Position numbers and translations under genes: made by a program. DNA of 64,000 nucleotides, taken from the NCBI GenBank assembly GCA_021405325.1, contig QWII01000001.1, positions 263,834 through 327,833 of the forward strand. Direction: 5' to 3'. Positions within the stretch are counted from its first letter, which is position 1, and every line of letters begins with the position of its first letter. The notes beneath the pieces are model-generated. The model had not been told where the DNA came from. It made no database searches and saw nothing but the letters and a program-made list of their open reading frames with translations. Of the stretch, positions 3,114 through 33,174 are shown piece by piece. This DNA comes from Caldilinea sp. CFX5. Its GTDB lineage: Bacteria > Chloroflexota > Anaerolineae > Caldilineales > Caldilineaceae.

Positions 3114-3617
3114 ATGTTATTTACCAAACAATTGTCTAGTAGTGTTGTCTTGTTTTGCACAATTGTGATCTGTTTCGGATCGATCAAAAGTGTCTATGCT
3201 GATAACCCAAGCCAAGGGACTACGACTGACGGACAAAGGTTGACGATCAACATTGCTGATATGCGCATTGATCACGTTGCTGCCGGCAGTTCCATTACAG
3301 TGACAGGGCAAGCTGTCATCAGCCCGGTAGCGTCATCATCTTACCCAACGGCAGTTTCGCCTGTCGCTATCGATTACGTAGAGGTGCGCATTGATTCGCT
3401 TATGCCGGTAACGGCGACCGTAGATGAACTCGGCAACTGGTCTGTGATCACCCAACTAAAAAACATTGGCGTTGGTCGGGCGATAGCCACAGCCATTGCA
3501 ACGGATGGAACCCGTGTAACTGCAGATCAGATCATGCCTTGCTATTGTGATCCAAATGCACCAGAACCATCAGCGCCAATGCGATTTATTTTTCTTCCCG
3601 TTGTTTTGGTCAAGTAG
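3114..3617 (+). CDS. Secreted Ig-like protein with FLPV tail
   Basis: 167 aa. The ATG follows an AAAGAGGTG ribosome site. Residues 1-30 are a signal peptide (hydrophobic VVLFCTIVICFGSI, cleavage near VYA-D). The mature part is about 130 residues of beta-strand-rich sequence with a repeated 'VEVRID...TATVDELGNWSV' pattern typical of bacterial Ig-like (Big) domains. It ends in FIFLPVVLVK, the same type of hydrophobic tail seen on the clostripain and beta-helix proteins. No enzymatic motif is visible. It sits alone between a terminator and the mini membrane protein genes. Function unknown; surface or secreted structural role inferred. Confidence 0.8.
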   Translation: MLFTKQLSSSVVLFCTIVICFGSIKSVYADNPSQGTTTDGQRLTINIADMRIDHVAAGSSITVTGQAVISPVASSSYPTAVSPVAIDYVEVRIDSLMPVTATVDELGNWSVITQLKNIGVGRAIATAIATDGTRVTADQIMPCYCDPNAPEPSAPMRFIFLPVVLVK

Positions 3618-4556: not shown

Positions 4557-4726
4557 TGATTGGAATTATGTTGGTGTGGTAAGGGAACAATGGCGACGGC
4601 AGGAAATGCAACCGCACCAGGATTATTTATGTACCAGTGTTCCATTGGTCTTTTGGATAAAGCGAATAACACACCTTTAACCTAACGGCCAATTCTCAAT
4701 CCATTTTTCATTTCAAAGGAGTTCCT

Positions 4727-7700
4727 ATGACAAAGTTTTTCAGACAGATGCTAGTGCCGGTCTTCCTGCTGGGCATTATGCTCATGCACACCATCACTGG
4801 CTATGCACAAACAACGAATGAGCCAGTCCAACCACAAAAGGTATACCTGCCCTTTGTGACTGCCAACACGAAACAAAGTCAGCAAGATAATACCGCCCGT
4901 CAATTGCGCTATCAGGTTGGTTACACCTACAGCTACCAGTGGGAGTTGACCGTTTTGACGCAAAGCAAGAGTAAAGATTCACAAGGCATTCGTGAAGATG
5001 GGAATATGACACGCATCAATGGGCAAGTGGATTTGCAAGTTCTTGCCCAGGACGCAGATGGAATCTACCAATTCAGCTTGGCTGTACGCAACCCAACTTT
5101 GGTGGCATCAGATCAAGATGAGCAAGCAACAACAGTAAACGACCCTGAGTTTGTCAGCGCGCTCAACACGCCGCTTTTGTTCAAACAGGCCAGCACTGGC
5201 GAAATCCGCGAAGTGCGCTATCCACAAGGCGCCCCCATGAGTGCCGTAGAGATGCAAAAAGGCATTGTCAATGCGCTACAAATGACGCTCAGGGCAGAGG
5301 CCACATACACAGTGGAAGAAGAAGGGGGACAAGGACGTTATCGGAGCCACTATACGGCAACCGAAGGGGTAAATAATGTCCAAATCTCTAAGCGGATCAG
5401 TGCGAATGATTTCTCGGAAATGGTGAGTGCTGGCGATGCTGGCGGGGCAATCCGATTAGAGAATCAGGTAGACATGGTGTTGGACACCCAGCAAGGTACA
5501 CCGCAGTCAATCCATGTGATTGAAGAGATCAGCGTCGGCGACCAAGTGGATATGCTGCCAGCAACCGCCATTATGACTTCCACCATTGCAGTTGAAACCA
5601 ACGTAATTTCTGACGGATGGCTACGGCTGAGTCAAGTGCAGAAAACAGAGAGCAATATTGCTGCGGCAGCAATTACCTACGTACAGGGTAGCTTACGCGC
5701 CATTCTAAGTAACACGATCCCGGCAGAGTCAGAAATCGATCTCAACACGGTACAGATTGACAGCGAACTTCAAAAGCTGACCCAAGACCCAACCAACCCG
5801 ACGAGCATCCAACGTATCGCTGAGTTGATTCGTCAGGATCAATCCCAAGAAACCCTCAAGGCCGTGCAAATGAGTTTAACCGGCACGAGCGACGAACAAA
5901 TTCTGAGTGGTTACGTTGGTGTGTTGAGCATGGCAGCAACCATGGAGGCGCAGGATGTTTTGATTGATAACATACTGACAGTTGATCAGATCAATGAGGC
6001 TTTGAAAACCAAAGCACTCACCGAATTGGCAGATCTAAAGCACGCTTCCCCACGTTTGGTTGACACTATTACCAAACTCAGCCAAAACGCAAAAGACGCT
6101 CTGTCATCCGTGGCATTACTGACCTTAGGTGGTTTAGCCAATTCACTCCAGCAAACTGATCCATCAACCGCAAACCGAATTACGGTTGACTTGGTTGCCC
6201 GACTAGAACAGACGCAAGTTCCGGCTGAACGTGAGGTGCTATTACTTGCTTTAGGGAATGCAGGGGCAACATCGACACAAAGCACAGTTGAGCGTTACCT
6301 ATCCGACAGCAATCCAACCATCCGCGGAGCGGCGGTGCTTGCGTTGCGTAAACTGCCGGTGGATACAGCCACTAGTCAGTTGACGGCAAGTCTAACCCTC
6401 GATCCGAGCAGTTACGTCCAGAAAATGGCTGCAACTGCCCTGGCGCAGCGTATGTTGAACCCAGCGCTAAGGACAGACGAGATAGAACAAGCTTTGCAAG
6501 CCTACGCTGCTGTGTCTGCTGCTACTATCGATGGTGTTTTCGCAAAGAACTGGACAAAAAGTTTTAGCGCAGGGCCACTCACCATTAATTTGCCGGGCGA
6601 TCTAACGGTTAAAAGCGCACCGGATGCGCCGACGTTAACATTAAACGCCAACCAATACGCCAATGGTAAAGTCATGGGCATCAATTTTAGCCTTTTTCAT
6701 GCGCAACTACTGAGCGATGCGCCGGCCGGCGCCCGTCGGGTTGGCGCCTATTTGTGGATCGGGAATAATACGCTCGTTTGGAAAGAGGAAGCGAACGTAC
6801 CCTGTAGCTTCGTCAAGAACCGCACATTATGGCAAGGTGACAAATCCTTTTTCAATTTTAACCAAAGTATCCCTGTTTATGTCGGTCTGGTCGTTACCTT
6901 ACAGGCGCAAGCCTCTGGTCGCGCTGCCATCACTTATGATTACCAACACCAACTTTGCAATGCCAATGCAGCTACGGTGTCAGGAACGATTACACCGCAA
7001 GTGATGGTTACAGCAAAAGGCAGTGCTTACCTGACTCTCTTACTCGTCCGAGGCGGGGTGACTTTACAGGCAGACATTTTGAAGGCGAGCTTGCCAGCGC
7101 GCGCAAGTGGCTCATTATCACAAAACGGAAGTACCTTGCCGACATTAGGTGCGTGTATCGATGCAAGAGCAAGCGTTGAGCCACTAAGTGGTTTCCTGGC
7201 AGCTAAGGCTGAGGTGTGGGTTCCCTGGCAATTTAAATGGAAAACAGTGGTCTCAAAGAATCTCTGGAGCTTTACGGTCAATAGCCAAAATTACACGCTG
7301 TGGGCGCAATGCTGGCCTGAAGCACCTGGCGCATTCAACAAAACCTATCCTAGCAGCAACGCAACCAATGTACCCGTTAGCATTAACTTAACCTGGAATG
7401 CTTCCGCTGGGGCCAGTTATTATCTGATCTGCGTCGATACGACTACTGATCTGCTCTGCAACGGGCTAGGCGATAACACTAACTTCACCCGAGTCAACGG
7501 CACCAGCTATTCCATCAATCTTGCCCCCGGTACAACTTACTCATGGCAGGTGCGCGCAGTGGGAGCGAATGGCGTTTGGACAGCCGCTGACGGCTCAGGA
7601 CAATGGGGGAGCTTCACCACGGGAAGTTGGCCCAGTCCTTTCAATAAAACCTATCCCGGCAATAACGCTACAGAGGTGCCAGCCAGTATCAACTTAACCT

Positions 7701-8239
7701 GGAGTCCATCCGCCGGCGCAAGTTATTACTTGGTTTGCATTGACACAACTGCCGACTTACTCTGCAATGGGTCAGGTGACAATACCAACTTCATCCGTGT
7801 TAACGGCACCAGCTACCCTGTCAACCTGGCGCTTGGCACAACCTACTCGTGGCAAGTGCGGGCTGTCGGGGCAAATGGTAACTGGACACCCGGCAATGGC
7901 TCAGGGGGATGGTGGACCTTCACGACGGGAAGTTACCCGGCGCCTTTCAACAAAACCTACCCCACGAATAACGCCACAAGCGTGCCAACCAGTATCAATT
8001 TGACGTGGAATGCTTCTGCTGGAGCCAGTTACTACTTGCTCTGTATCGACACAACAGCGGACTTACTCTGCAACGGAGCAGATAATCATGCCAACTTTAC
8101 ACGGGTTAATGGCACAAGCTATTACATTAATCTTGCCCCTGGTACGACCTACTCTTGGCAGGTGCGAGCGATGGGAGCGAATGGCAACTGGACACCCGGC
8201 AATGGCTCAGGGCAATGGTGGATCTTTAGGACTAGATAG
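4727..8239 (+). CDS. Large secreted protein with vitellogenin-like N-terminal module and three FN3/Ig-like repeats
   Basis: 1170 aa; AAAGGAG ribosome site. Residues 1-28 are a signal peptide, followed by QKVYLPFV, the exported-protein motif of this window. Residues ~58-330 resemble the N-terminal beta-barrel of vitellogenins/large lipid transfer proteins: YTYSYQWEL, TPLLFKQASTGEIREVRYP, EMQKGIVNALQM (residues ~177-188), then YTVEEEGGQGRYRSHY and an ISKRIS strand, in the same order as in animal vitellogenin. Residues ~360-600 are HEAT-like helical pairs with LLALGNAGA and AVLALRKLP, again matching the vitellogenin superhelix. Residues ~600-860 are beta-rich (possible lipid-cavity sheet). The C-terminus has three ~102-residue FNKTYP...GTTYSWQVRAVG repeats. 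A lipid- or polysaccharide-carrying exported role is inferred; the homology is by eye. Confidence 0.85.
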   Translation: MTKFFRQMLVPVFLLGIMLMHTITGYAQTTNEPVQPQKVYLPFVTANTKQSQQDNTARQLRYQVGYTYSYQWELTVLTQSKSKDSQGIREDGNMTRINGQVDLQVLAQDADGIYQFSLAVRNPTLVASDQDEQATTVNDPEFVSALNTPLLFKQASTGEIREVRYPQGAPMSAVEMQKGIVNALQMTLRAEATYTVEEEGGQGRYRSHYTATEGVNNVQISKRISANDFSEMVSAGDAGGAIRLENQVDMVLDTQQGTPQSIHVIEEISVGDQVDMLPATAIMTSTIAVETNVISDGWLRLSQVQKTESNIAAAAITYVQGSLRAILSNTIPAESEIDLNTVQIDSELQKLTQDPTNPTSIQRIAELIRQDQSQETLKAVQMSLTGTSDEQILSGYVGVLSMAATMEAQDVLIDNILTVDQINEALKTKALTELADLKHASPRLVDTITKLSQNAKDALSSVALLTLGGLANSLQQTDPSTANRITVDLVARLEQTQVPAEREVLLLALGNAGATSTQSTVERYLSDSNPTIRGAAVLALRKLPVDTATSQLTASLTLDPSSYVQKMAATALAQRMLNPALRTDEIEQALQAYAAVSAATIDGVFAKNWTKSFSAGPLTINLPGDLTVKSAPDAPTLTLNANQYANGKVMGINFSLFHAQLLSDAPAGARRVGAYLWIGNNTLVWKEEANVPCSFVKNRTLWQGDKSFFNFNQSIPVYVGLVVTLQAQASGRAAITYDYQHQLCNANAATVSGTITPQVMVTAKGSAYLTLLLVRGGVTLQADILKASLPARASGSLSQNGSTLPTLGACIDARASVEPLSGFLAAKAEVWVPWQFKWKTVVSKNLWSFTVNSQNYTLWAQCWPEAPGAFNKTYPSSNATNVPVSINLTWNASAGASYYLICVDTTTDLLCNGLGDNTNFTRVNGTSYSINLAPGTTYSWQVRAVGANGVWTAADGSGQWGSFTTGSWPSPFNKTYPGNNATEVPASINLTWSPSAGASYYLVCIDTTADLLCNGSGDNTNFIRVNGTSYPVNLALGTTYSWQVRAVGANGNWTPGNGSGGWWTFTTGSYPAPFNKTYPTNNATSVPTSINLTWNASAGASYYLLCIDTTADLLCNGADNHANFTRVNGTSYYINLAPGTTYSWQVRAMGANGNWTPGNGSGQWWIFRTR
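7325..8239 (+). repeat. Three tandem 306-bp coding repeats
   Basis: Units begin near 7325, 7631 and 7937 (the TTC of FNKTYP lies at 7334, 7640 and 7946, a constant 306 bp). Each encodes one fibronectin-III/Ig-like domain with paired Cys (VDTT..LLCNG). The copies are similar at both protein and DNA level, which points to recent duplication. Confidence 0.85.
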
Positions 8240-8254
8240 CCCAGGAGTTTAACA

Positions 8255-8299
8255 GGTTTGGCACACCTTTTCACCGAGCAATGCAAGGTGTGCCAAACC
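8255..8299 (+). terminator. Hairpin after the vitellogenin-like gene
   Basis: Perfect 15-bp inverted repeat (GGTTTGGCACACCTT / complement) with a 15-nt loop, starting 16 bases after the stop at 8239. It is followed by a T-rich but not pure T stretch, so it may be a terminator or an RNA-end stabiliser before the next gene. Confidence 0.6.
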
Positions 8300-8349
8300 C
8301 GTTTCTTACCCCTTCGCTCATCACGCTTGCTATACAAGGAGGCATCTAC

Positions 8350-10215
8350 ATGAACAACTTGGCTCATTTTATGTTGAAAGTAGCGCTGAGTCTTGCCATT
8401 GCGTTGCTTCTGCTATTCAACATCGGGCAGTGGCACCCAGTCAGTGCTGATGCAAATGATGTGAATTGCAATGCACCACCTGTTGTCTGCAAAAGCGGCG
8501 CGCTGACCAGCAACGAAACCTGGCAAGCCGGCAATATTTACGTGATCACCAGCGATTTGACCGTAGGGCCAGCCGCCACATTAACCATTCAGGCCGGCGC
8601 CATCGTCAAGTTTACCGATTATTGTTGTGACAAAAGAAACTTGTTTGTGGAAGGAACGCTCCGGGTGAATGGGACGGACGGGCAAAAGGTCTACTTTACC
8701 AGCATCTACGACGATGCGCTTGGTGGCGATACCAACAACGATAGCGGCAATAGCCAGCCCGTCGCCGGGAATTGGGACAATCTTGTTTTCAAAAATGGCA
8801 GTCATGGGGTGATCAACCATGCCGAAATTCGCTACGGCGATCATGGGCGCGGCGGGGCGATTCGGCTGGAAGGGAGTTCACCCACACTCGATCACGTTAC
8901 CGTCAAATATAGTCCGTGGGCGGCCATTAGCGCTTTGCCAACCGACACCCCCACGATCACAAACTTTGCGTCGCAGAGTGTCGGCGGCGGGATGGAAATT
9001 CGGGGCGGCGCGCTGACGACCAATGCCACTTGGGACCAAACCGGCATTGTCTATATTCTCACCAGCGATTTTACAGTGGGGACAGGCGCTACCCTGACGA
9101 TTGCCCCGGGGGTCATTCTCAAATTTGTCGATTTTTGTTGTGATAAACGGAATCTGTTTGTCGAAGGGACACTCAATGTCAACGGCACCGCTACGCAGAA
9201 AGTCTATTTCACCAGCATGAATGACGATGCCATCGGCGGTGACACCAATGCCGATGGCGGCAACAGCCAACCGCGCGCCGGCAACTGGGATAACATCGTT
9301 TTCAAGAATGGCAGTCATGGCGCCCTCAATCACGTCGAAATCCGCTACACGGGCGGCGGTGCGCTTACCTTAGATGGCAGTTCGCCGACCCTGGCGAACG
9401 TTACCATCAAGCATGGCGCATGGGTTGCCGTCAGCGCCTTGCCCACGGATAGGCCCACCATCACCAATCTTGCCACCGAAAATGTGGCCCTGGCCGGGAT
9501 GGAAATTCGGGGCGGCGCCCTGACGACCAATGCCACTTGGGATCAAACCGGCGTTGTTTATATTATCACCAACGATTTTACGGTGGGGACAGGCGCCACT
9601 CTGACGATTGCCCCAGGGGTCATTCTCAAATTTGTCGATTACTGTTGTGATAAACGGAATCTATTTATCGAAGGGGCGCTCAGTGTCAACGGGAACGCGG
9701 CGCAGAAAATCTATTTTACGAGCATTTACGATGATGCGATTGGTGGCGATACCAATAATGACAGCGGTAATTCCCAGGCCAGGGCCGGCGACTGGGGTGG
9801 CATTCGGTTTGTCGCCGGTAGCAATGGCAGTTTCATCCATGCTGTGATTCGTTATTCTGGTGTTTCACGCACGGCTGGCGCCTTGCATATCAAAGATGCC
9901 ACGGTCACCATTGCCAACTCCGTGATCAGCAACAATGTCATCGGTCTCTTTGCCGAAGGCCCCGCCGCCGAAGTAACGGCACAGATGACCAACGCACCGG
10001 CCAATGTCAGCCAATCCGGTTTATACAGCAATGGGGAGTACGATGTCTTTGCGCAGGCCGGCGCCAGCGTCGTGGCCGATAACAACTGGTGGGGCAGCAG
10101 CAATCCCCAGCCCAAAGTCAGCGGCAACGTGACTACCGCCAATCCTTGCACCAATGAAACTTGTACAGCCGGTGGTAAACCGGGCACGCTCTATCTACCG
10201 TTGATACGCCGATAG
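8350..10215 (+). CDS. Secreted triplicated beta-helix protein with YLPL tail
   Basis: The ATG at 8350 has an ideal AAGGAGG site; an earlier ATG at 8281 lies inside the preceding hairpin and is rejected. 621 aa. Residues 1-32 are a signal peptide (VALSLAIALLLLFNIG). The body is three ~170-residue units, each with TWDQTG..YI.TSDFTVG, a double-Cys CCDKRNLFVEG strand, YFTS..DDA.GGDTN.D.GNSQ and a GNWDN.VFKNGSHG turn, a pattern typical of right-handed parallel beta-helix proteins; the DD..GGDTN loop looks calcium-binding. It ends GTLYLPLIRR. Probably a surface or secreted adhesin or polysaccharide-binding scaffold; no catalytic residues are evident. Confidence 0.85.
   Translation: MNNLAHFMLKVALSLAIALLLLFNIGQWHPVSADANDVNCNAPPVVCKSGALTSNETWQAGNIYVITSDLTVGPAATLTIQAGAIVKFTDYCCDKRNLFVEGTLRVNGTDGQKVYFTSIYDDALGGDTNNDSGNSQPVAGNWDNLVFKNGSHGVINHAEIRYGDHGRGGAIRLEGSSPTLDHVTVKYSPWAAISALPTDTPTITNFASQSVGGGMEIRGGALTTNATWDQTGIVYILTSDFTVGTGATLTIAPGVILKFVDFCCDKRNLFVEGTLNVNGTATQKVYFTSMNDDAIGGDTNADGGNSQPRAGNWDNIVFKNGSHGALNHVEIRYTGGGALTLDGSSPTLANVTIKHGAWVAVSALPTDRPTITNLATENVALAGMEIRGGALTTNATWDQTGVVYIITNDFTVGTGATLTIAPGVILKFVDYCCDKRNLFIEGALSVNGNAAQKIYFTSIYDDAIGGDTNNDSGNSQARAGDWGGIRFVAGSNGSFIHAVIRYSGVSRTAGALHIKDATVTIANSVISNNVIGLFAEGPAAEVTAQMTNAPANVSQSGLYSNGEYDVFAQAGASVVADNNWWGSSNPQPKVSGNVTTANPCTNETCTAGGKPGTLYLPLIRR
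8496..9850 (+). repeat. Three ~510-bp coding repeats in the beta-helix gene
   Basis: The GGCGC..CTGAC landmark recurs near 8496, 9006 and 9513, spacing 510 and 507 bp. Units 2 and 3 are nearly identical over long stretches, indicating recent duplication. Confidence 0.8.
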
Positions 10216-10826: not shown

Positions 10827-12698
10827 CTACTGCCGTACGCCTTTACTCAAAACGGTGGCTAACGTTTTATCAAGTTTATTGCCATGATATAAGCCAAAGG
10901 TAGGCGGGGTGGCGGCCGACATGCGGAAGGTCCACAATGACCAATGCACGTCGGCCGCGTTCATCAAGCTAATCTTGTCGCCCAACAACGTAGCGCGTGA
11001 CTTGCCAGGTGCATTTGGTGTGGCGCCAAATTCGCCTACGTACAGTGGCACATTGTTACGTGCGGCCCAATCCAGGGCTGGTTGCATGTACCCTTGGAGA
11101 CGCTTGCGGTCATAGGTTACATAAGTACCCTGCCAATAGTCGAGCGTCACACCGGCGCCGCCCTGGTTTTCGGGTGTACGCACCCAGCCATGTACTTGGA
11201 AGGTGTCACGGGCTTTGACCGGGAGGAGAGGCGCTGTAAAGAACTCATAATTTTGCAGCCAGATGCCATAGTCATTGGTCGAGCCGGTGATTTGCAGGCT
11301 GCGGCTGCCCGTGCGTGCGACGTTGCTCCATGCGCCGGTGAAGTTACCCGCGCCATGAAAACGCCAGTAACGGGGGCGCGTGGCGTCAAACGGGGCGACC
11401 TCTTCCATGCCAGCGTTGCGCATTGGCATAGGTGCGCCGTTCTTGCGTATCCCCAGGTCGTCGAACCAGACAGCGCCGGCATTGCCCCAAGCATACGTTT
11501 TCACGCCGACCCATTCGGCGCCGGCGGGTGGTCGGATCGCACTGCTCTCGACATAGCGCCACTCGTTCGCCTGATTGCTCAAATGCGCGGCATCGCCGGC
11601 CGAGCCGAGCCACTTGAGACCGGTCAGTACGCGTCCTGGGTAGGCATAGGCGCTGGGCACCGGTGCGTCGTGCCCCCAATCCATCCCGGCATGGGTGACA
11701 ATAAAGGGATCGTAATCGTGATAGGAGTAGACAACATTGGTATCGTCGATCAACGCAAAAACCACTTCCGGCCAGGTTGGCGTCTCTACAATAACGATGT
11801 GATTTGGATCCACTGTACGAATGGCGTCAGCAACCCGGTTTGCTAAAGCCCACCACTGGGCCGGATCTGGTGGGCGTGGCTCATTGTAGATATCGTAGCC
11901 GGCCACGCTGGTGCGGTCCCGATACCGTTGTGCGATTGCGCTCCACAGCGTGACGAACTGCTGTTGCGCAGCAGCGTTATGCCAGATCCGCTCCTGACCG
12001 AAATCGTCGTCGGGAGGAACAACGTGCATATCTAAAATGACATAGATGCCCGCCGCTTCGCACCAGGCAAGGTATTGATCAATCAGGCGATACCCCAAAT
12101 CGGAGTCGAAATATTTCCAGTGTAAGGCCAGGCGGATAACGGTGACGCCCAGTTTATCGAGATACTGGATATCGCTCTGATTGGCATACCAATTCAACTG
12201 CGCATCAGGCCAGGTGGCTGCATCATAGTAGTAATAGGTATCCATGTTGATACCGCGCAGTTTAACCGCGCGGCCGCTGCCATCGACGATCTGCCGCCCC
12301 TGTGTCCGCAGGAAACCGGCGTTGACTGTGAGAGCCGGTGTTATATCCGTCGTCGCCGCCGTGCTAATGAGAACTTCATCCGTTGCCTCGGTGTCAAGCG
12401 CCGTAAGCACCGCCGGTAAGTAGAGAGAATGGGCCAACAGCGTCTCTGCCTGCACCTGGGATAAATCGTTGCTGCTGTCTACCCCAACAGAGAGCGTGTC
12501 TACCGCTACCTCGCCATCAGGCAATCGGCTCACCGGCTGGGCGGCAAGCGGGTTATGCATGATCGGCAAATAGCTAGAATGAGCAGGGGACTGCCCTTCA
12601 CGCTCTTGTGCATTCATGTTTGGCGACCCAGCCCAGAGCAGTACACCTATCAGCAAAGCGGTTACTAACGCGAACGTTATCCAATACGAACGACGCAT
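10827..12698 (-). CDS. Secreted GH5 cellulase-like glycoside hydrolase with inserted carbohydrate-binding-like domain
   Basis: The ATG at 12698 (GAAAGGAAT site, signal peptide from MRRSYWITFALV) is preferred over 12779, which would overlap the upstream gene. After the signal come two copies of the exported motif (SSYLPIM, HSLYLPAV). The TIM barrel starts at GINMDTYYYYDAA; the acid/base Glu is in YDIYNEP (Glu273) and the nucleophile in YVGEFGA (Glu556), as in GH5. Between the later strands (~365-530) sits an inserted beta-rich block (WRYVESSAIRPPAGAEWVGV..WFDDLGI) resembling a family-4/9-type CBM. Expected to cut beta-glucan or related polymers outside the cell. Cotranscribed with the regulator upstream (31-bp gap). 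Confidence 0.88.
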   Translation of the reverse strand: MRRSYWITFALVTALLIGVLLWAGSPNMNAQEREGQSPAHSSYLPIMHNPLAAQPVSRLPDGEVAVDTLSVGVDSSNDLSQVQAETLLAHSLYLPAVLTALDTEATDEVLISTAATTDITPALTVNAGFLRTQGRQIVDGSGRAVKLRGINMDTYYYYDAATWPDAQLNWYANQSDIQYLDKLGVTVIRLALHWKYFDSDLGYRLIDQYLAWCEAAGIYVILDMHVVPPDDDFGQERIWHNAAAQQQFVTLWSAIAQRYRDRTSVAGYDIYNEPRPPDPAQWWALANRVADAIRTVDPNHIVIVETPTWPEVVFALIDDTNVVYSYHDYDPFIVTHAGMDWGHDAPVPSAYAYPGRVLTGLKWLGSAGDAAHLSNQANEWRYVESSAIRPPAGAEWVGVKTYAWGNAGAVWFDDLGIRKNGAPMPMRNAGMEEVAPFDATRPRYWRFHGAGNFTGAWSNVARTGSRSLQITGSTNDYGIWLQNYEFFTAPLLPVKARDTFQVHGWVRTPENQGGAGVTLDYWQGTYVTYDRKRLQGYMQPALDWAARNNVPLYVGEFGATPNAPGKSRATLLGDKISLMNAADVHWSLWTFRMSAATPPTFGLYHGNKLDKTLATVLSKGVRQ

Positions 12699-12729
12699 AC
12701 AACAACTATTCCTTTCATGGACAACAGTG

Positions 12730-13902
12730 CTACAGATATTGCACACACAGATTATCGACGGCGGCATGAAAGACACCACCCTGGTGTGCCCATAGACTGA
12801 TTTTTACGCCGGTTATCGGTTGCTGCTGGGTGGCGGGTTCCACCTGTAGAACGTCATCCAGGTAAACCTGCGCTTGCGCCTGCGCCCAAACGATCCGCAT
12901 GGGAACGGCAACCCCGACCGGAAATTGCACTTCCTTGAGCAGGGTGTAGCTTTCTGCCGCGCCACACGGGGGCGCGGCACAAATTTTATATAGATACCGG
13001 CGCTGAACTCCACTCAAGTCAAGCTCCAGACTCACCTCCTGCCCATCGGCAAGTAAGACGGCGACATCAGCACCGGCGCTACTCTGGTTGCCCGCATCAG
13101 CAAGCAAGGTCATTTGGAAAGCGACTTCTTTGATGGGACGATTCAAAGAGGTCGCGGCCTGATAGGCCCACACGCCGGTCTTTTGGGTTTGGGCGGCGGT
13201 TGCGCGCAGGTTCAAGAGGCCATCTTGTTCATAAATCAGTTCGCCCGCGATGGGGGTGGCTGGGATCTGCGCAAAGTTTTCCGGCGGTTGCCATAGGTGC
13301 GCATCACGTTGACCATCGGCAAAATCATCACACCACGCCTGCGCTGCCGTTGGCGCTGTCAGTTTGCCAGCCACCCACGCCACGCCGAGAAGCGCGATAG
13401 CCAAAGCGACGCCGATAGCCCATTGCCGGGGATTTAGAGTGATAAACCAGATGGCAGCGCGCTTCGTCGGCGCCACAACCGCCGTTGGGATCGACGGCGC
13501 TGCTTCAGCCACAGCCGTGGCTTGCGCTTCGTTTCCCACCACCCCAAAGATAAGCGTGCGCTCATGCTCACTGAGGGCGGCATATTCGAGATAGGTCAAT
13601 AAATTGTTTGCCGCTTCCAGGTTGATGACGCCCTTCTGGTTAAAATAAACAATGAAGAGCAGCACACGGCTACGGGCCGGTTTGGTCTTGCCATTTTCGT
13701 ACTTGCTCACATCGGTTTTACTAAAAGTGGTCGCGGCTTCTTCACACTCTTTGCGCGCAAGCAAGTCGGTTAACGGGCTGTCCGGTTGGTCGGCGGCTTC
13801 GTGGAGCAAATAGGCAAGCCCATTGAGGAAACCATCCTGCGATACCTGCGCCGCTTGCCGCAATGCTTTGAGCAGTTCCCCAAATTTCTTTCGTTCTTCC
13901 AT
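12730..13902 (-). CDS. Membrane-anchored HTH regulator with LamG-like outer domain
   Basis: Start at the ATG at 13902 (AGGTG seven bases upstream); a GTG three codons earlier is possible. Residues ~5-100 are an XRE-like helix-turn-helix region (FGELLKALRQAAQVSQ ... TDVSKYENGKTKPARSRV) with a ~35-residue insertion. A single transmembrane helix follows (WAIGVALAIALLGVAWVAG, ~165-185). The C-terminal ~200 residues are a jelly-roll/concanavalin-like domain (WCDDFADGQRD ... VYLDDVLQVEPA ... VDNLCVQYL). This is the layout of a one-component transmembrane sensor: sugar- or ligand-binding outside, DNA-binding inside. Its neighbour is a secreted cellulase, so polysaccharide sensing is a reasonable inference. 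Confidence 0.8.
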   Translation of the reverse strand: MEERKKFGELLKALRQAAQVSQDGFLNGLAYLLHEAADQPDSPLTDLLARKECEEAATTFSKTDVSKYENGKTKPARSRVLLFIVYFNQKGVINLEAANNLLTYLEYAALSEHERTLIFGVVGNEAQATAVAEAAPSIPTAVVAPTKRAAIWFITLNPRQWAIGVALAIALLGVAWVAGKLTAPTAAQAWCDDFADGQRDAHLWQPPENFAQIPATPIAGELIYEQDGLLNLRATAAQTQKTGVWAYQAATSLNRPIKEVAFQMTLLADAGNQSSAGADVAVLLADGQEVSLELDLSGVQRRYLYKICAAPPCGAAESYTLLKEVQFPVGVAVPMRIVWAQAQAQVYLDDVLQVEPATQQQPITGVKISLWAHQGGVFHAAVDNLCVQYL

Positions 13903-14497: not shown

Positions 14498-16186
14498 ATG
14501 ATGCGCAAATCGTTCTTCCCGTTGCTGGTCACAGCGCTCTTGCCGCTGTTCCTGTTGCTTTTCTGGCAGGGGCGACAGCCAGTAGCCTTTGCCCATAACA
14601 GAGGGCAAGCCGACTTCGCTCAGGACGATGAGAGTGACCCTATCACCACAACAATCGTCACAGGCCCCTACCAACTCTATCTTCCCCTGATCGAAAATGC
14701 CGATAGCGAAAGTGCGGATAGCGAAAATACGGATAGCGAAAATACGGACACGGAAGAGATCATCGGCGAAGGAGGAGTACGCCCTACACGCACTCCCAAA
14801 CCGACGCGTACACCAACGCCCACCCGCACCCCCAAACCCACGCGCACGCCGAAAGTCACCCCCACCCCGACGCCAACGCCCACAGCCACTTCAGCAGTGG
14901 CGCAAAATCCCTTTGACGCCCTCTACCCAAGCAACTTCCGGCTCCGTGCGCTCAGCGCCGATGCCATTCCGCTGGTCAGCAAGCCGGCGCGCAAGGCGAC
15001 GGGGTTGACTGCCCCCAGTTTCATCGATCCAGTTTATGAGACGCGCCTCTATCAAGTGACAGCCGCGACCGATTTTACCGGCGCCTCCTTTGTGCGTCAC
15101 GATTACAGCCGGCGCCAGGCCTTTAATGCCGACAATTCGCGTTTCATCGCCACCACCAGCAATGGCTTCTGGGTGCTGTACGATGCCAATACCTTCCAGC
15201 GGTTGCCGCGCGCCGGTTATAACGGCGCCTTGCAAGGGCTGGCCGGCGATTGTGAAGCGATCTGGCATCCCAGCGACCCCAAAAAACTTTGGTACACGGT
15301 TCATGACGGCCGTTTGCGCTGGTATGAGAAGAATGTGGAGACCGACACCGACACGGTGCTGGTCGATTTCACCGGTCGGTTGCCCTGGCCGCAAGCGCGC
15401 TCAGTCTGGACAAAGGCCGAGGGGACGCCGTCGGCGGATGGGCGCTATTGGGCGTTCATGGCGACGACCTATGATGATGTTCAGCAGACCAATACAATCT
15501 ATGGTTTGTTCACCTGGGATCGCCAACTGAACCAAATCCTGGGGACTTATGATGCCAGCAATTTCGGTGGCCACTTTCCAGATTACATCAGCATCGCTCC
15601 CAGCGGGAAGTACGCAGTAGCGTCTTGGGCCTATAACCGGGCGCTGGGGACGCGCGCCTATCCCGTCGATTTTTCATCATCGCGCCAACTCGCCCCCGAT
15701 ACGGAACACAGCGATTTGGCGATTGGCCCGAATGGCGAGGATTATTATGTGGCGGCAAACTATGACAGCAGCGGCACCATCAGCGCAATCAACATTGCTA
15801 CGGGCGAAGCGTTTGACCTGCTGCCGCTCTATCCGGTCTCCGGGGAAGGGTATGCCGTGCATATTTCCGGCAAGGCGTTCAACCGACCGGGGTGGGTGGT
15901 CATTAGCACCTATGCCGACGGCGCCGATTACGGCAATGTCCGCCCAGCCCCAACCGTGCGCCCCATGTATCGCAAGATCATGCTGGTGGAACTCAAACCG
16001 GGCGGTCGTCAATACAATGTCGCCCATACGCGCGCCGGCGCCAACTACGGCGGCTACTGGGGCGAACACCACGCCACTGTCAGCCGCGACGGGTCACGCA
16101 TCCTCTTTGCCACCAATTTTGATGACGGCGGCCCACCGCAAGATTACTTGATCGGCCTGCCGTCTTGGGTTTATCAGCAACCCTAA
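14498..16186 (+). CDS. Secreted beta-propeller protein with Thr-Pro linker
   Basis: ATGATG start pair with AGAAGGAG just upstream; the second ATG (14501) has the better spacing. 562 aa: signal peptide (LLVTALLPLFLLLFWQG), then YQLYLPLIEN (exported motif), an acidic DSEN/DSES repeat, a TRTPKPTRTPTPTRT-type linker (~nt 14781-14890), and a ~430-residue domain with recurring SPDG/SADG-like blades (TPSADGRYWAFMA, SIAPSGKYAVASW, HHATVSRDGSRILFAT) typical of a TolB/WD40-like propeller. The HHATVSRDG strand resembles those of oligogalacturonate lyase-like propellers, but catalytic residues could not be confirmed. Likely cell-surface or secreted. Confidence 0.82.
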   Translation: MMRKSFFPLLVTALLPLFLLLFWQGRQPVAFAHNRGQADFAQDDESDPITTTIVTGPYQLYLPLIENADSESADSENTDSENTDTEEIIGEGGVRPTRTPKPTRTPTPTRTPKPTRTPKVTPTPTPTPTATSAVAQNPFDALYPSNFRLRALSADAIPLVSKPARKATGLTAPSFIDPVYETRLYQVTAATDFTGASFVRHDYSRRQAFNADNSRFIATTSNGFWVLYDANTFQRLPRAGYNGALQGLAGDCEAIWHPSDPKKLWYTVHDGRLRWYEKNVETDTDTVLVDFTGRLPWPQARSVWTKAEGTPSADGRYWAFMATTYDDVQQTNTIYGLFTWDRQLNQILGTYDASNFGGHFPDYISIAPSGKYAVASWAYNRALGTRAYPVDFSSSRQLAPDTEHSDLAIGPNGEDYYVAANYDSSGTISAINIATGEAFDLLPLYPVSGEGYAVHISGKAFNRPGWVVISTYADGADYGNVRPAPTVRPMYRKIMLVELKPGGRQYNVAHTRAGANYGGYWGEHHATVSRDGSRILFATNFDDGGPPQDYLIGLPSWVYQQP

Positions 16187-17768: not shown

Positions 17769-17905
17769 AATCTTTAAAAAGAATGCAACCTATTCTATCA
17801 TGCTCTTTGCCGTTTTACGATTCCGCTAAATTCGCATATAATCTTATTTCAACCACCCTTGACCGCTTGTTTCGCCCAATGTGTTCATTCATTTACGGAC
17901 CAACC

Positions 17906-18595
17906 ATGCAACAACCACCGCGTCTTGAGACCACAGTACGGTTTGCTGTCGTCAACAGCTTTACGGCAGCCAGTTTGATCCTGGGCTTTGCCTCGTTAAT
18001 ATTGACGATGGCCGGTATGTTAACCGAGGCAGCCTTTTGCCTCCTGGCCAGCGTGGCCCTCGACGGCTGCGACGGCAACCTGGCGCGCCATTGGAAGGTG
18101 TCCAGTTCCTTTGGCGCCCAACTCGATTCCATGGCCGATCTGACCGCCTTTAGTATTGGTGCGGCAGCATTGGCTTATTACTGGTTGATGGAGAAGGAAC
18201 CATCGCATCTGTTCATGGCCGCTGCCGTCAGCACCCTGGTGGCGTTGACCGGCGCCATCCGTCTGGCGCGCTTTAATACGGCGCCGAAAAATGACGCCTA
18301 TTTTCAGGGCATTCCCACCACCTTTGCCGGCGCGGTGATTGCCCTGCTCTATCTGGCGGCGCCCGATTTGGCGCTGGTGTGGGGCTTGGCCTTGGTGGCG
18401 CTGCTGGCGGTCCTCATGGTCAGCGCCTTTCCCTATATGAAGCTAACCCAATTGCGCCGCCTGCCCAAGTGGGTTTGGCTGCTGGCCGTTGGCAGCATGA
18501 TCGTTAACCCGCCTGCCGGCGCGTTGACCTGCGCTTCGGTCTATCTGTGTAGCGGGCCGGTTTTGTGGTTGAAACAGAAGCGGACAAGACAATAG
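17906..18595 (+). CDS. pssA: CDP-diacylglycerol-serine O-phosphatidyltransferase
   Basis: Makes phosphatidylserine from CDP-diacylglycerol and serine in the membrane. The full CDP-alcohol phosphotransferase signature is present and exactly spaced: D53..DG..AR61, G70, D74, D78 (DGCDGNLAR ... GAQLDSMAD). 229 aa with about six hydrophobic helices, normal for PssA. The start at 17906 (MQQPPRLE) is chosen because the longer frame adds 41 residues without membrane or family character; the ribosome site is weak. It converges on the fused decarboxylase/methyltransferase gene, which would use its product. Confidence 0.85.
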   Translation: MQQPPRLETTVRFAVVNSFTAASLILGFASLILTMAGMLTEAAFCLLASVALDGCDGNLARHWKVSSSFGAQLDSMADLTAFSIGAAALAYYWLMEKEPSHLFMAAAVSTLVALTGAIRLARFNTAPKNDAYFQGIPTTFAGAVIALLYLAAPDLALVWGLALVALLAVLMVSAFPYMKLTQLRRLPKWVWLLAVGSMIVNPPAGALTCASVYLCSGPVLWLKQKRTRQ

Positions 18596-18776: not shown

Positions 18777-20105
18777 CTACCCCTTCACCTGCGCCAGTGG
18801 CGTGACACCACCGACCACCCGATCCCCAACCTTCACTAACGCCGTAAAGCGCTGCGCCGGCAAGTAAACATCGGTGCGCGAGCCAAAGCGGATCAGCCCC
18901 ATCTTTTCCCCCTGCGTCACCAGGGCGCCGGGACGCAGCCGATTGACAATCCGCCGGGCGATCAAGCCGACCCGCTGGGCGACAATACAGCGCCCTTCCA
19001 CCCCTTCAATGACCGTATAGAGGGCGTTGTTATGTTCAGCCGCCGGTAAACTGGCGGCCGCAAAGCCGCCGCTGCTTGCCACAATTTCGGTCACGCGCCC
19101 GGCCACCGGCGCGTAGTTGACATGCACATCCAGCAGCGACAAAAAGACGGCTATGCGCAGCCACGGCCCTTCGCCAAAGCGGTCATCGGTCAACTCTTCC
19201 ACGGCCAACACCACCCCATCACTCGCCGCATAAGCAATGCGCTGCTCCCGTAACTTTGGCCGTTTCGGGTCGCGAAAGAAGGCGGCCAGCAGCGGCAACA
19301 AGATGGCCGGCGCCCACCAGGTGCGACGCCGTGGCGCCACTTTGTAGAGCAAAGCTGCCGCAGCACTCGCCAATGCTAGAAAGGGCAACACAGCGCTGTC
19401 CATCACAAAATCACCAATCGTCACACGATGGTTGCGGCGAGGGGGCGCCAGCTTAAGAGCCGCCGCAGCCTGTGCCGGTTGAAAGCGCAGGTAATGAATC
19501 CAGGCCGGCGGCGCATTGCGCAGCACCAGGTCGCGCCGAAACGCATAGGGGGTCAGGAGGCGATTGTAGACAGCAGCCCGCTCCGCCTGTTGCGGATCAA
19601 GACCGCTGACCCGCTTCAGGGTCTGCCCACCAACATATTCGATATAACTGAGAACACCCCCCGGTTTAAGCAGGCGCTGGTAATGGGCCAAGACCGCTTC
19701 AATAAAAGCGGGCGGACAGTTGTTAAAGGGCAATGTTGAGACAATAAAATCAAATTGCGGTTCAGCCGGCAGATCGAGAATACTACCGCCGATAAAACGG
19801 GTCTGCGGCAAGACGCGACGAAAGGTCGCTTCCTCAGCAAAGCGCTTTTGTAACAGCGTCATAAAGGTGGGGTTGATTTCACAAACCACCAGTTCATCTT
19901 GTGCGCTGATGTAGTGTATCAGTTGAGAGGTGATCGCGCCGGTGCCGGCGCCCACCTCCAAGACCCGTTTCGGCCCTTTGACCCTGGCGACTTCGGCGGC
20001 CAGGGCATCGGCAGCGGTAGCCGAGGTTGGCAAGACTGCGCCAATTTCAGCAATATGGCTGAAAAATTCTTTGAGAAATTGCAGGTTTTCGGTAAGTATT
20101 GGCAT
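18777..20105 (-). CDS. Fusion: phospholipid N-methyltransferase + phosphatidylserine decarboxylase
   Basis: The start is the ATG at 20105 (a TTG five codons earlier is less likely). 442 aa. Residues ~1-215 are a Rossmann methyltransferase: VLEVGAGTGAIT (48-59), VVCEINPTF, then FDFIVSTLPFNNCPPAFIEA and LKPGGVLSYIEYVGG, as in PmtA-like phospholipid methyltransferases. Residues ~235-442 are a phosphatidylserine decarboxylase: two hydrophobic helices, FFRDPKR, ASDGVVLAVEE, FLSLLDVHVNYAPVAG, AEHNNA and the self-cleavage site RFG-SRTDVYLP (Gly408-Ser409), where the pyruvoyl group forms. One chain thus combines the step making phosphatidylethanolamine and the step methylating it. Faces pssA. Alternative: the methyltransferase could act on another substrate. 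Confidence 0.85.
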   Translation of the reverse strand: MPILTENLQFLKEFFSHIAEIGAVLPTSATAADALAAEVARVKGPKRVLEVGAGTGAITSQLIHYISAQDELVVCEINPTFMTLLQKRFAEEATFRRVLPQTRFIGGSILDLPAEPQFDFIVSTLPFNNCPPAFIEAVLAHYQRLLKPGGVLSYIEYVGGQTLKRVSGLDPQQAERAAVYNRLLTPYAFRRDLVLRNAPPAWIHYLRFQPAQAAAALKLAPPRRNHRVTIGDFVMDSAVLPFLALASAAAALLYKVAPRRRTWWAPAILLPLLAAFFRDPKRPKLREQRIAYAASDGVVLAVEELTDDRFGEGPWLRIAVFLSLLDVHVNYAPVAGRVTEIVASSGGFAAASLPAAEHNNALYTVIEGVEGRCIVAQRVGLIARRIVNRLRPGALVTQGEKMGLIRFGSRTDVYLPAQRFTALVKVGDRVVGGVTPLAQVKG

Positions 20106-20128
20106 GGTTGAGTTGAGCAAAGCTAGGG

Positions 20129-30246: not shown

Positions 30247-33174
30247 TCACTCGGTTGGCGTAGCGGTCATGGCGCCGAACAGAGCGGTGAAGTTGGTCTG
30301 TTCCTGGGCCAGCCGTTGACCTTTGCGCCAGGCGGTGGTAAAGCGTTCTTCTCCCAACGCGGCGTGCGCCTGCTGCACCAACTGCTCAAAAATTTGCCCA
30401 TCATGGGGCGACAGGGGCGAATTGTGGCGCGTGCGTAGGGTGTGGGCAATGCTGAACATGGGTACGGCTTGCTCATGTGCGCCGGTTGCCACCGCGACTT
30501 CCCCCAGACATTCCAGCATCCACGCCACACCGATAATGCTGCCCATCTCCTGGCGGATCTGCAACGCCTCCTGAAAAATGCCTTCGGCGGCCTGTGGTTT
30601 GCCGTTGAGGAGCAAGACGCGTCCCAGTTTGCCCAAAGCCCAGGCGCGCATCCCGGTGCGCCGCTCATCTAAGGCGAGACTTTCGGTCAGATAGCTTTCG
30701 GCTCCTTGCAGATCCTGCCGACGCGTGGCAAGTTCTCCCAAGAGGATCAGGCTGCCGGCCATGGTTCCCCGCGCATCAAGCCGACGGGCAATGGTTAGGC
30801 TTTCCTGGGCGAACTGTTCCGCCCGGATCAGATCGTGGGCGCCATCCATCATTTGCGTGGTTAAGCGTTGGAGGACAGAAGCGATCCCGCGCTCCTCACC
30901 AAGCTGTCGAAAGGTGGCCAGCGCCTTAAACAGTAAGGCGTCACAGACAGCGTTATCCCCTTGGTGATACTCAGAGCGAGCCAGGTGAAAGAGCGTCCAG
31001 GCACATTCGCTTGCGTTGCCAAGCTTTTCAAAAATGCGCAAACTCTCTTGATAGGCCTGGCTGGCACGGTGGCCCTCGGCTGTCAAACCAAGCAACAAGC
31101 CCCATTCATTCAACACCGTTGCCCGTAACGCCAAGGTCTCGTCCGTTGACGGTAGCGCTAATGCCAGATCTTGCCAGGTGAGTCCCTCCTGCACGTTGCT
31201 GGCAATGTACCAATAATCGCGCAGCACTGCCACCAATTCTAGGCCCAACCGCCCTTCGCCTTCGGCAAAACACCAATGAAGGGCAGCCTGCACATTTTCA
31301 TACTCCCGGGCGATGGTTGCCATGCCAGGGCGAGCGCCCAAATAACGGCTTGGGGCGTCGATCTGTCGGATCATTGCCAGCATGGCTGCGGCATGGCGAC
31401 GCTGACCGGTCTGTAATTGGCTGGTCGCCGCTAGTTGTTCGGCAGCAAACTGGCGGATCAGTTCGTGCAACTGGTAACGCCCGGTCGCCGAACGGCTGAC
31501 CAGTGACTTATCAACCAACGCCTGGAGCAACGCCGGGCTGGCATCGGCCACCGCCAGCGCCAGTTCTGCCGTAAAGCCGCCGCGAAAGACGGCCAGTCGC
31601 GGAAAGATCTGCTGCTCGGTCGGCGTCAGCAGCCGCCACGAGGTCTGAAAGACGGCGCGCAGACTGCGTTGACGTAGGGGCAGATCGGGGGCGTTGGTGG
31701 TGAGGAAGTCGAGATTGTGGGCCAGTTCGGCGGCAATGGCGGCAGGAGAAAGGTCACTACTCCACGCTGCGGCCAGTTCCAGCGCCAGCGGCAGCCCTTG
31801 CACCTGCTGCCCGATGGTGACGAGGGCCGGCAGATCGGCAGCGGTCAACTGGTAATTCGGCTGGTGGCGGCGCACTGTTTCCAGCCAGAGGTGAAGACCA
31901 CTAAAGGCTGTGGCGGCGGCAGGGGTGAGGGTGGACGCTTCTTGCGGCGTCGGCACCGGCAAGCCCTGTAGCCAGTAAAGCTGTTCCGTATGTAACCCCA
32001 ACCGGGTGCGCGAGGTGATAAGCAGTTTGACCTCCGGCGCCTGTTCCAGCACCTGCACCAGCAAGGCCAGCGTCTGCTCATTGAGCAGTTGCTCCACGTT
32101 GTCCAACACCAGGAGCAGTTCTTTGTCGTGCAGATGGGTGAGGACTTGGGCAGCGGGTGGCTCCTTGCCTTGCAAACTCAGCCCCAACGCCTGGGCCATT
32201 GCCATCGTCATCTGCGCTGTGGTATCGACGCCGGCCAGCGCCACAAAGACAACGCCATGCAAGAAGAGGCGCTTCTGGTCAGCAGCCACCTGCTGCGCGG
32301 TCTCCAGCACCAGCCGCGTCTTGCCGATGCCGCCAACGCCCGACACCGTGAGCAGGCGCGAACGCCCCGCCAGCAGCCGCACCAGTTCGCCGACCTCCTC
32401 GCTGCGTCCGATCAAGGGGGTGACGGTGGGCGGCAGGTTGTGGAGCGGACGTTGGGCCGCCGCTTGTAGACGGGCATAGAGCGCCTGGGTGCGTTGCCCC
32501 GGCTCGACGGCCAGTTCCGCCCAAAGCACGCGACGACAGACGCCATAGTGAGCCAATGCCGCGCTGATCTGCCCGGTGCGCGCCAGCAAGAGCATCACCT
32601 GATAGTGGACTTCCTCGCGCCACGGCTCCAGCGCCACCAGACGGCGGGCATAGCGCAGGGCGTCGTGATAGGCGGCGGAGGCGGTATGCCGAGCGATCAA
32701 GCGGTCGAGGAGGGCGATCATCTGCTGTTGCCATTGCTCCTGCTCACGCAAGAGCCAGCTTTCCAGGTCAGGCGCTTCGTCGAGATAGACGCCTTCGAGC
32801 AAGGGCGCGCGATAGAGGTCAACAGCTTGCGCCCAGGCGGCGGGGTCCTCTTGCGCCACCAGTCGCGCAAAGGTGCGTACATCAATGGTCACGGGCGTTA
32901 CCGGCTGAAAGTGGACAGTGCGGCGATCCACCACGAGGCAGTCAGGCAGCTTACTGGTCAAATCATGCAGCGTGCGGCGCAGCAGGCCCAACGCCTGGCT
33001 CTGCTCCACCTCCGGCCAGGCCAGCCCCGCCAGATGTTCGCGCGTCACGGGTCGATCGATACAGATCAAATAGGCCAGCAAGGCGAGCGCCTTCTGGGAA
33101 CGAAAGTCGGTGAGTAGCGCATCCTGGTGGCGAATCTCCATCGCCCCAAAGAGGCGGATGTCGAGCGTGCTCAT
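30247..33174 (-). CDS. SARP/BTAD regulator with NB-ARC ATPase and TPR repeats
   Basis: 975 aa. Residues ~1-95 are a winged-helix DNA-binding domain (RLFGAMEIRHQ ... LGLLRRTLHDLTSKL), ~100-245 a bacterial transcriptional activation (BTAD) domain, ~255-600 an NB-ARC-type STAND ATPase (Walker A VGGIGKTRL, Walker B LLLVLDNVEQLL, ITSRTRLGL sensor, GLPLALELAA), then TPR-like repeats (DLQGAESYLTESLAL). Such proteins are signal-gated transcription activators: ligand or protein binding to the repeats releases the ATPase switch. Target genes are not evident. Two near-identical hairpins bracket the gene. Confidence 0.9.
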   Translation of the reverse strand: MSTLDIRLFGAMEIRHQDALLTDFRSQKALALLAYLICIDRPVTREHLAGLAWPEVEQSQALGLLRRTLHDLTSKLPDCLVVDRRTVHFQPVTPVTIDVRTFARLVAQEDPAAWAQAVDLYRAPLLEGVYLDEAPDLESWLLREQEQWQQQMIALLDRLIARHTASAAYHDALRYARRLVALEPWREEVHYQVMLLLARTGQISAALAHYGVCRRVLWAELAVEPGQRTQALYARLQAAAQRPLHNLPPTVTPLIGRSEEVGELVRLLAGRSRLLTVSGVGGIGKTRLVLETAQQVAADQKRLFLHGVVFVALAGVDTTAQMTMAMAQALGLSLQGKEPPAAQVLTHLHDKELLLVLDNVEQLLNEQTLALLVQVLEQAPEVKLLITSRTRLGLHTEQLYWLQGLPVPTPQEASTLTPAAATAFSGLHLWLETVRRHQPNYQLTAADLPALVTIGQQVQGLPLALELAAAWSSDLSPAAIAAELAHNLDFLTTNAPDLPLRQRSLRAVFQTSWRLLTPTEQQIFPRLAVFRGGFTAELALAVADASPALLQALVDKSLVSRSATGRYQLHELIRQFAAEQLAATSQLQTGQRRHAAAMLAMIRQIDAPSRYLGARPGMATIAREYENVQAALHWCFAEGEGRLGLELVAVLRDYWYIASNVQEGLTWQDLALALPSTDETLALRATVLNEWGLLLGLTAEGHRASQAYQESLRIFEKLGNASECAWTLFHLARSEYHQGDNAVCDALLFKALATFRQLGEERGIASVLQRLTTQMMDGAHDLIRAEQFAQESLTIARRLDARGTMAGSLILLGELATRRQDLQGAESYLTESLALDERRTGMRAWALGKLGRVLLLNGKPQAAEGIFQEALQIRQEMGSIIGVAWMLECLGEVAVATGAHEQAVPMFSIAHTLRTRHNSPLSPHDGQIFEQLVQQAHAALGEERFTTAWRKGQRLAQEQTNFTALFGAMTATPTE

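Follow-up and report, generated by a model that had tools for sequence, protein, structure and literature searches.

An exported-looking Chloroflexota protein with the predicted core of animal large lipid-transfer proteins

We analysed a stretch of 64,000 nucleotides from Caldilinea sp. CFX5 (hereafter, the window), which encodes at positions 4727..8239 an exported-looking protein of 1170 residues matching the Pfam family Vitellogenin_N (E 5e-22). We consider it likely that this protein is a bacterial member of the fold of the large lipid-transfer proteins (LLTP), that it has the whole core of MTP and lipovitellin, and that it acts as an exported lipid carrier. Profile comparisons establish the homology of its N-terminal beta-barrel and helical horseshoe to those of the animal LLTPs, and its predicted structure matches the core of MTP and lipovitellin over the whole length. 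The gene and all the features described within or beside it lie on the forward strand (+).

Results

Sequence evidence for the barrel and the horseshoe

An earlier note, made from the sequence alone, had proposed a vitellogenin-like barrel followed by a HEAT-like superhelix, a layout on which Vitellogenin_N and a profile of the barrel alone now agree. The strings from which the note started (TPLLFK..GEIREVRYP, MQKGIVNALQM, YTVEEEGGQGRYRSHY, ISKRIS, LLALGNAGA and AVLALRKLP) are all in the open reading frame (ORF) 4727-8239 at the places given for them, and HMMER alignments pair them with lipovitellin VPVRFDYSAGRIGDIYAPP, NIVRGILNLFQLSL, ELQETGVEGICQTTY and LKALGNAG. The barrel, which has an inserted helix, covers residues 59-310 (4901..5656) according to the barrel-only profile and the second of two structural models (model 2). 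The HEAT-like alpha-superhelix, or horseshoe, covers residues 343-600 (5753..6526), as seen in the Vitellogenin_N match and in the helices of both models, those of model 2 lying at 290-544. The match to Vitellogenin_N (PF01347) scores 78.7 bits, for a cut-off of 24, in two stretches, the best at residues 342-544; the other Pfam matches are HEAT_2 and fn3, and NCBIfam has no family for the protein. Vitellogenin_N is also found at E<=0.01 in all 18 rows of an alignment of 18 Chloroflexota proteins that includes the window protein (A3). In the motif LLLALGNAGA (residues 505-514, 6239..6268), aligned with lipovitellin LKALGNAG, the positions A508, G510, N511 and G513 are invariant in these rows (18/18).

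The similarity to solved structures was searched with profiles of increasing depth. Searched as a single sequence, the window protein ranks lipovitellin after designed HEAT repeats, with a weak match in the barrel (E 0.013, residues 140-219). When six close relatives were combined into a profile limited to residues 55-600, lipovitellin matched at 1.7e-7 in one stretch spanning barrel and helices, and the profile of the 18 whole-length Chloroflexota proteins reaches 1.3e-27 for lipovitellin (chain 3-505) and 4.1e-14 for human MTP (chain 24-542). Barrel and horseshoe are thus covered by one continuous match. Designed HEAT repeats also score with the latter profile, as expected. The decisive control used a profile restricted to the N-terminal barrel (13 sequences): it matched lipovitellin at 2.4e-10 and MTP at 1.9e-6 (two entries), and these three were the only sequences with E below 0.1 among 177,635 distinct PDB sequences. 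They were followed by an augmin subunit (0.19) and honey-bee vitellogenin (1.1), then by nothing up to E 10. Since the barrel-only profile is so selective, its match to lipovitellin and MTP is more than chance. With the first helices added to the barrel, lipovitellin and MTP came out at 1.3e-9 and 3.1e-7, the next match being a designed helical construct at 0.0099.

These results exclude an outcome that the earlier note had named as refuting, namely profile matches to generic HEAT repeats alone with none for the barrel. They also bear on a rival reading, in which the protein is of the generic HEAT-repeat kind, its N-terminal beta domain is unrelated and the name vitellogenin stems from the HEAT part alone. 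Several Vitellogenin_N matches in other genomes are indeed confined to the helical part, and designed HEAT repeats come just behind lipovitellin with the 18-protein profile and tie with some LLTPs in the VIA comparison of model 1. Yet the barrel matches lipovitellin and MTP without the HEAT region, hence the similarity is not confined to the helical repeats; we therefore rejected this explanation, which we regard as very improbable.

Predicted structure and comparison with known lipid-transfer proteins

The predicted structure contains the N-terminal barrel and the helical horseshoe that the earlier note had anticipated, with pLDDT blocks in the barrel of model 2 mostly at 80-94 and loops at 46-75. 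The Foldseek check proposed in the note also came out in favour of the LLTPs, the top matches of both models being MTP, lipovitellin, honey-bee vitellogenin and apoB. The same proteins lead the VIA matches of model 2, the better one; for model 1, which is weaker, some LLTPs are tied with HEAT designs. The whole-model VIA alignments of model 2 start at residues 2-11 and so include the barrel. The note had ended the LLTP-like part near residue 600, and here structure prediction corrects it: this part runs to about residue 865. A C-terminal beta-sheet domain (residues 604-863, 6536..7315) is given by the strands of model 2 and by the whole-length alignment with MTP, and its sheets align whole-length with both MTP and lipovitellin, at pLDDT 58-77 and with no sequence match. 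By analogy with the A and C sheets of MTP, we regard this domain as a candidate for a lipid cavity. It has no Pfam match over the cut-off and only weak DUF7223 matches (5 of 13 members, best E 0.02); its Cys693 and Cys744 are invariant in 18/18 rows of A3.

The closest parallel in architecture is the large subunit of MTP (PDB 6i7s, 8eoj), which has barrel, horseshoe and C-terminal beta-sheets in the same order and to the same extent as the predicted structure. The model aligns with it over 730 residues (MTP 21-880; TM 0.67/0.63), and the lengths are alike (811 modelled residues for 862 in MTP). However, the identity is 12-13%, the lipid-sheet domain has no sequence match, and the window protein is bacterial, looks exported and carries Fn3 repeats at its C-terminus. 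MTP forms a complex with protein disulfide isomerase; for the window protein no such partner is known, and no partner search was made. Lipovitellin/vitellogenin (PDB 1lsh, 9enr) gives the best sequence match, the 1.3e-27 cited above across barrel and horseshoe, as well as the highest VIA Z (31.5), and shares the ALGNAG motif. Its sheet part is longer, about 500 residues (what remains of the 1lsh chain, judged from its numbering) for about 260 in the window protein. Vitellogenins have additional domains, DUF1943 and VWD, behind the N-terminal module, and unlike them the window protein shows neither of these nor any other vitellogenin domain in Pfam at E up to 1. The beta/alpha1 region of apoB (PDB 9bd1, 9bd8) was compared as well; the whole superposition on 9bd1 is poor (18.1 Å), and the remainder of apoB has no counterpart in the much shorter window protein.

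Relatives and taxonomic distribution

Close homologues (P0002-P0006, the first from a Caldilineaceae metagenome-assembled genome) are 44-68% identical over the searched region. The "three sticky domains" of the earlier note correspond to three tandem Fn3-type repeats (7334..8236; starts at 7334, 7640 and 7946, a spacing of 306 nt or 102 aa). Such tails vary across A3: fn3 occurs in 3 of 18 rows, ricin-B lectin in 2, RTX in 2, and the rest have none of these. Ricin-B lectin or RTX calcium-binding repeats take the place of Fn3 in P0004, P0005, P0006 and L132. The core of barrel, horseshoe and sheets is the constant part of the family, because Herpetosiphon and other relatives (e.g. L133-L139) keep it without a tail.

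Distribution was counted as genomes with Vitellogenin_N over its cut-off, in a survey of bacterial genomes, with phyla named as the records of the central loci suggest; the 14 control genomes gave no match in any scan and hence provide no positive control. In a draw from the Chloroflexota, 11 of 400 genomes were positive, six with a barrel match and five with the helical end alone. The class of Herpetosiphon had 11 of 158, with the barrel match in the same six genomes. Myxococcota had 13 of 282, Acidobacteriota 7 of 247, Gemmatimonadota 9 of 200 and Actinomycetota 2 of 246; in the last three phyla the matches listed are limited to the helical part (profile 302-590). One protein from the Chloroflexota draw (L148), of the NACHT-HEAT type, was set aside because its match is HEAT-only. 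A profile scan of genome contigs gave 85 pattern matches, none of them a relative. Phage origin found no support, with no tblastn match at E 1e-5 in 50,697 phage records.

Seven Myxococcota proteins (L141-L147) are short forms of 627-763 aa (with mechanically assigned starts) that have barrel and horseshoe and lack the C-terminal sheets. Their barrel aligns with that of Chloroflexota (hhalign probability 98.7, E 1.8e-16); a profile of the seven barrels had no LLTP match in the PDB. This short form might be a periplasmic or membrane-anchored adaptor.

A cultured carrier, Herpetosiphon aurantiacus

Three diverged copies are present in Herpetosiphon aurantiacus DSM 785, whose replicons measure 6,346,587 and 339,639 bases. 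The plasmid copy is 99.9% identical to Haur_5045 of pHAU01 (CP000876), annotated as 'Lipid transport protein domain'. This protein (ABX07675.1; L137 in A3) belongs to the same bacterial family as the window protein, from which it differs by its 22% identity and the lack of an Fn3 tail. A search with the plasmid copy matched the Herpetosiphon record alone (1 of 72,556 plasmid records). The pHAU01 copy (L149 5028-16207) is flanked on each side by integrase and transposase genes, nearby and not immediately adjacent, a setting that points to possible mobility. 'Vitellogenin' does not occur in the H. aurantiacus genome paper (PMC3368417), where 'lipid' appears twice, for cell lipids and for a COG category. 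Nor do the terms lipid transport, vitellogenin, lipoprotein or HEAT repeat occur in that of Herpetosiphon llansteffanense (PMC6210107).

Discussion

Function and alternative readings

If the protein is a lipid carrier, Sec would export it and it would fold outside the membrane. A lipid (phospholipid, wax or neutral lipid) would then sit in a hydrophobic cleft, with the C-terminal sheets on one side and the horseshoe on the other, and the N-terminal barrel would dock a partner or the acceptor membrane. Tethering to the cell surface or matrix would fall to the C-terminal modules, which are exchangeable: Fn3 in the window protein, ricin-B lectin or RTX in relatives and no module in Herpetosiphon. 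The protein might capture extracellular lipid, with prey, debris or neighbours as the source, or it might shuttle lipid over the cell envelope. The export signal was read by eye; the cavity, the lipid cargo, the tethering and the direction of transport we infer.

Several observations weigh against a lipid carrier. The C-terminal sheet domain, with its pLDDT of 58-77, has no sequence match to any LLTP lipid domain and no PDB match up to E 10, an ordinary beta-sandwich could equally have such amphipathic strands, and the VIA root-mean-square deviation across the whole core is 6.0-6.9 Å. The family is patchy: 4 of 46 Caldilineales genomes have it (all four with a barrel match), and none of the 20 genomes reached through the loci nor of 10 further genomes carries Vitellogenin_N over its cut-off. 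No lipid-metabolism gene was found as a shared neighbour across 12 homologous loci, and only a BTAD-type regulator adjoins the LLTP-like gene repeatedly, in three Caldilineales loci. In this light, the LLTP fold could be real but the exported protein could have given up lipid transport for a structural, adhesive or matrix role, the C-terminal sheets being a plain sandwich and the Fn3, lectin and RTX tails the working parts. The adhesive nature of the C-terminal modules, the lack of shared lipid-metabolism neighbours and the lower confidence of the sheets would fit, and there is a precedent among animal LLTP relatives in the crustacean clotting proteins, described as Vtg-related in PMC1783640. 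Against it, Herpetosiphon, L133-L139 and others keep barrel, horseshoe and sheets without such a tail, and the model matches MTP over its whole length. We therefore see a structural role as unlikely, if still deserving of attention.

Eukaryotic contamination, or a recent transfer from an animal to a bacterium, might be suspected from composition, as the gene has a G+C of 50.8% (53.0% at third codon positions, GC3) and the other 33 window ORFs 57.8% (GC3 65.8%). However, it sits in an 11-kb stretch of 46-55% G+C and is therefore not outstanding locally. The window is from a bacterial chromosome, with gyrB, EPSP synthase, PNPase and LexA, and the frame of 1170 codons is open, with no stop. The finished H. 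aurantiacus genome has three diverged copies, and relatives beyond the close group are 19-31% identical to the window protein and span two phyla. Gene content and the finished genome led us to dismiss contamination, and the explanation as a whole has in our view hardly any chance of being right.

Evolution and significance

That bacterial members exist is already recorded by database annotation, which labels them by domain. Among the titles and abstract starts listed by searches of 5.39 million open PMC papers, none describes a bacterial LLTP, and the available part of PMC1783640 treats LLTPs in animals only, with the words 'bacteria', 'prokaryot' and 'eukaryot' absent from it. Our tree had 27 rows, 26 bacterial (including five of the seven Myxococcota proteins) and one animal, lipovitellin; its alignment (A4) excludes P0007 and P0010, though these had been found. 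The tree sets lipovitellin next to the Caldilineales group (88/84), its branch being very long (3.04 changes per column), and Chloroflexota as a single clade is not rejected (p-AU 0.173). With a single animal row and this clade not rejected, the tree cannot settle the direction. It is conceivable, if on balance doubtful, that a Chloroflexota-type exported lipid carrier, lipid sheets included, is the ancestor of animal MTP, apoB and vitellogenin and reached the animal stem or an earlier eukaryote by gene transfer.

The LLTP family thus extends beyond animals, and a cultured bacterium is at hand for its study. A full-length bacterial relative, present also in the fully sequenced predator H. aurantiacus, offers an outgroup for the whole superfamily. 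As bacteria have an MTP-like core that appears complete, the origin of animal fat transport and lipoprotein assembly becomes testable. A bacterial LLTP would be a small and possibly easier-to-express model of MTP, and it suggests a route by which bacteria without an LPS outer membrane could capture or move extracellular lipid.

Gene neighbourhood and side observations

BLASTP was used to compare the called neighbours at the 12 homologous loci with each other and with six genes next to the window gene. Only close relatives have a gene order in common (L134/L136/L138/L139; L130/L131), and the six window neighbours match none at the 12 loci. No conserved operon was found in this comparison, and with no gene order shared beyond close relatives the gene probably does not depend on a fixed operon. 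The large BTAD-type regulator adjoining the gene (L130 10301-13453, L131 10466-13756, L132 9676-12966) is a weak lead for regulation. The window has two BTAD-type regulators (30247-33174 and 34107-37412), not adjacent to the LLTP-like gene.

A Shine-Dalgarno-like AAAGGAG (4715..4721), read directly from the sequence, precedes the ATG at 4727. The Sec-type signal peptide (residues 1-28, 4727..4810), judged by eye, ends in ...GYAQ; the most hydrophobic 15-mer of the whole protein starts at residue 9, no lipobox was seen on inspection by eye, and homologues also have signal-like N-termini. It is followed by a low-confidence linker (residues 29-58, 4811..4900; pLDDT blocks 20-44 in model 1) with the motif KVYLPFV. 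Beyond the stop codon, an inverted repeat (8251..8303; arms 8251-8269 and 8285-8303, 18/19 paired, inner 15 bp perfect, 15-nt loop) is possibly a terminator; it is absent from the output of a terminator scan that allows loops of 3-8 nt, shorter than this one. The called start of the next ORF (8281-10215) falls within the repeat, and a later ATG (MNNLAHFM), preceded by AAGGAGG, is likely the true start.

A YLPLI-like motif occurs in six window proteins (291-2882, 3114-3617, 4727-8239, 8281-10215, 10827-12779 and 14498-16186), in three of them only 2-3 residues before the C-terminal end and in the other three within the first 125 residues. Its seven occurrences in the 34 window ORFs compare with a shuffled mean of 0.44 and maximum of 4 (500 shuffles), for a pattern defined only once the motif had been seen. 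Similar strings are present in the N-termini of P0002-P0006, L129-L131 and L140, and the motif may serve Chloroflexota as a signal for sorting or anchoring. Finally, a single ORF at 18777-20120 (-) joins a methyltransferase domain to a phosphatidylserine decarboxylase, near a CDP-alcohol phosphatidyltransferase gene (17783-18595), and is a possible phospholipid-head-group fusion.
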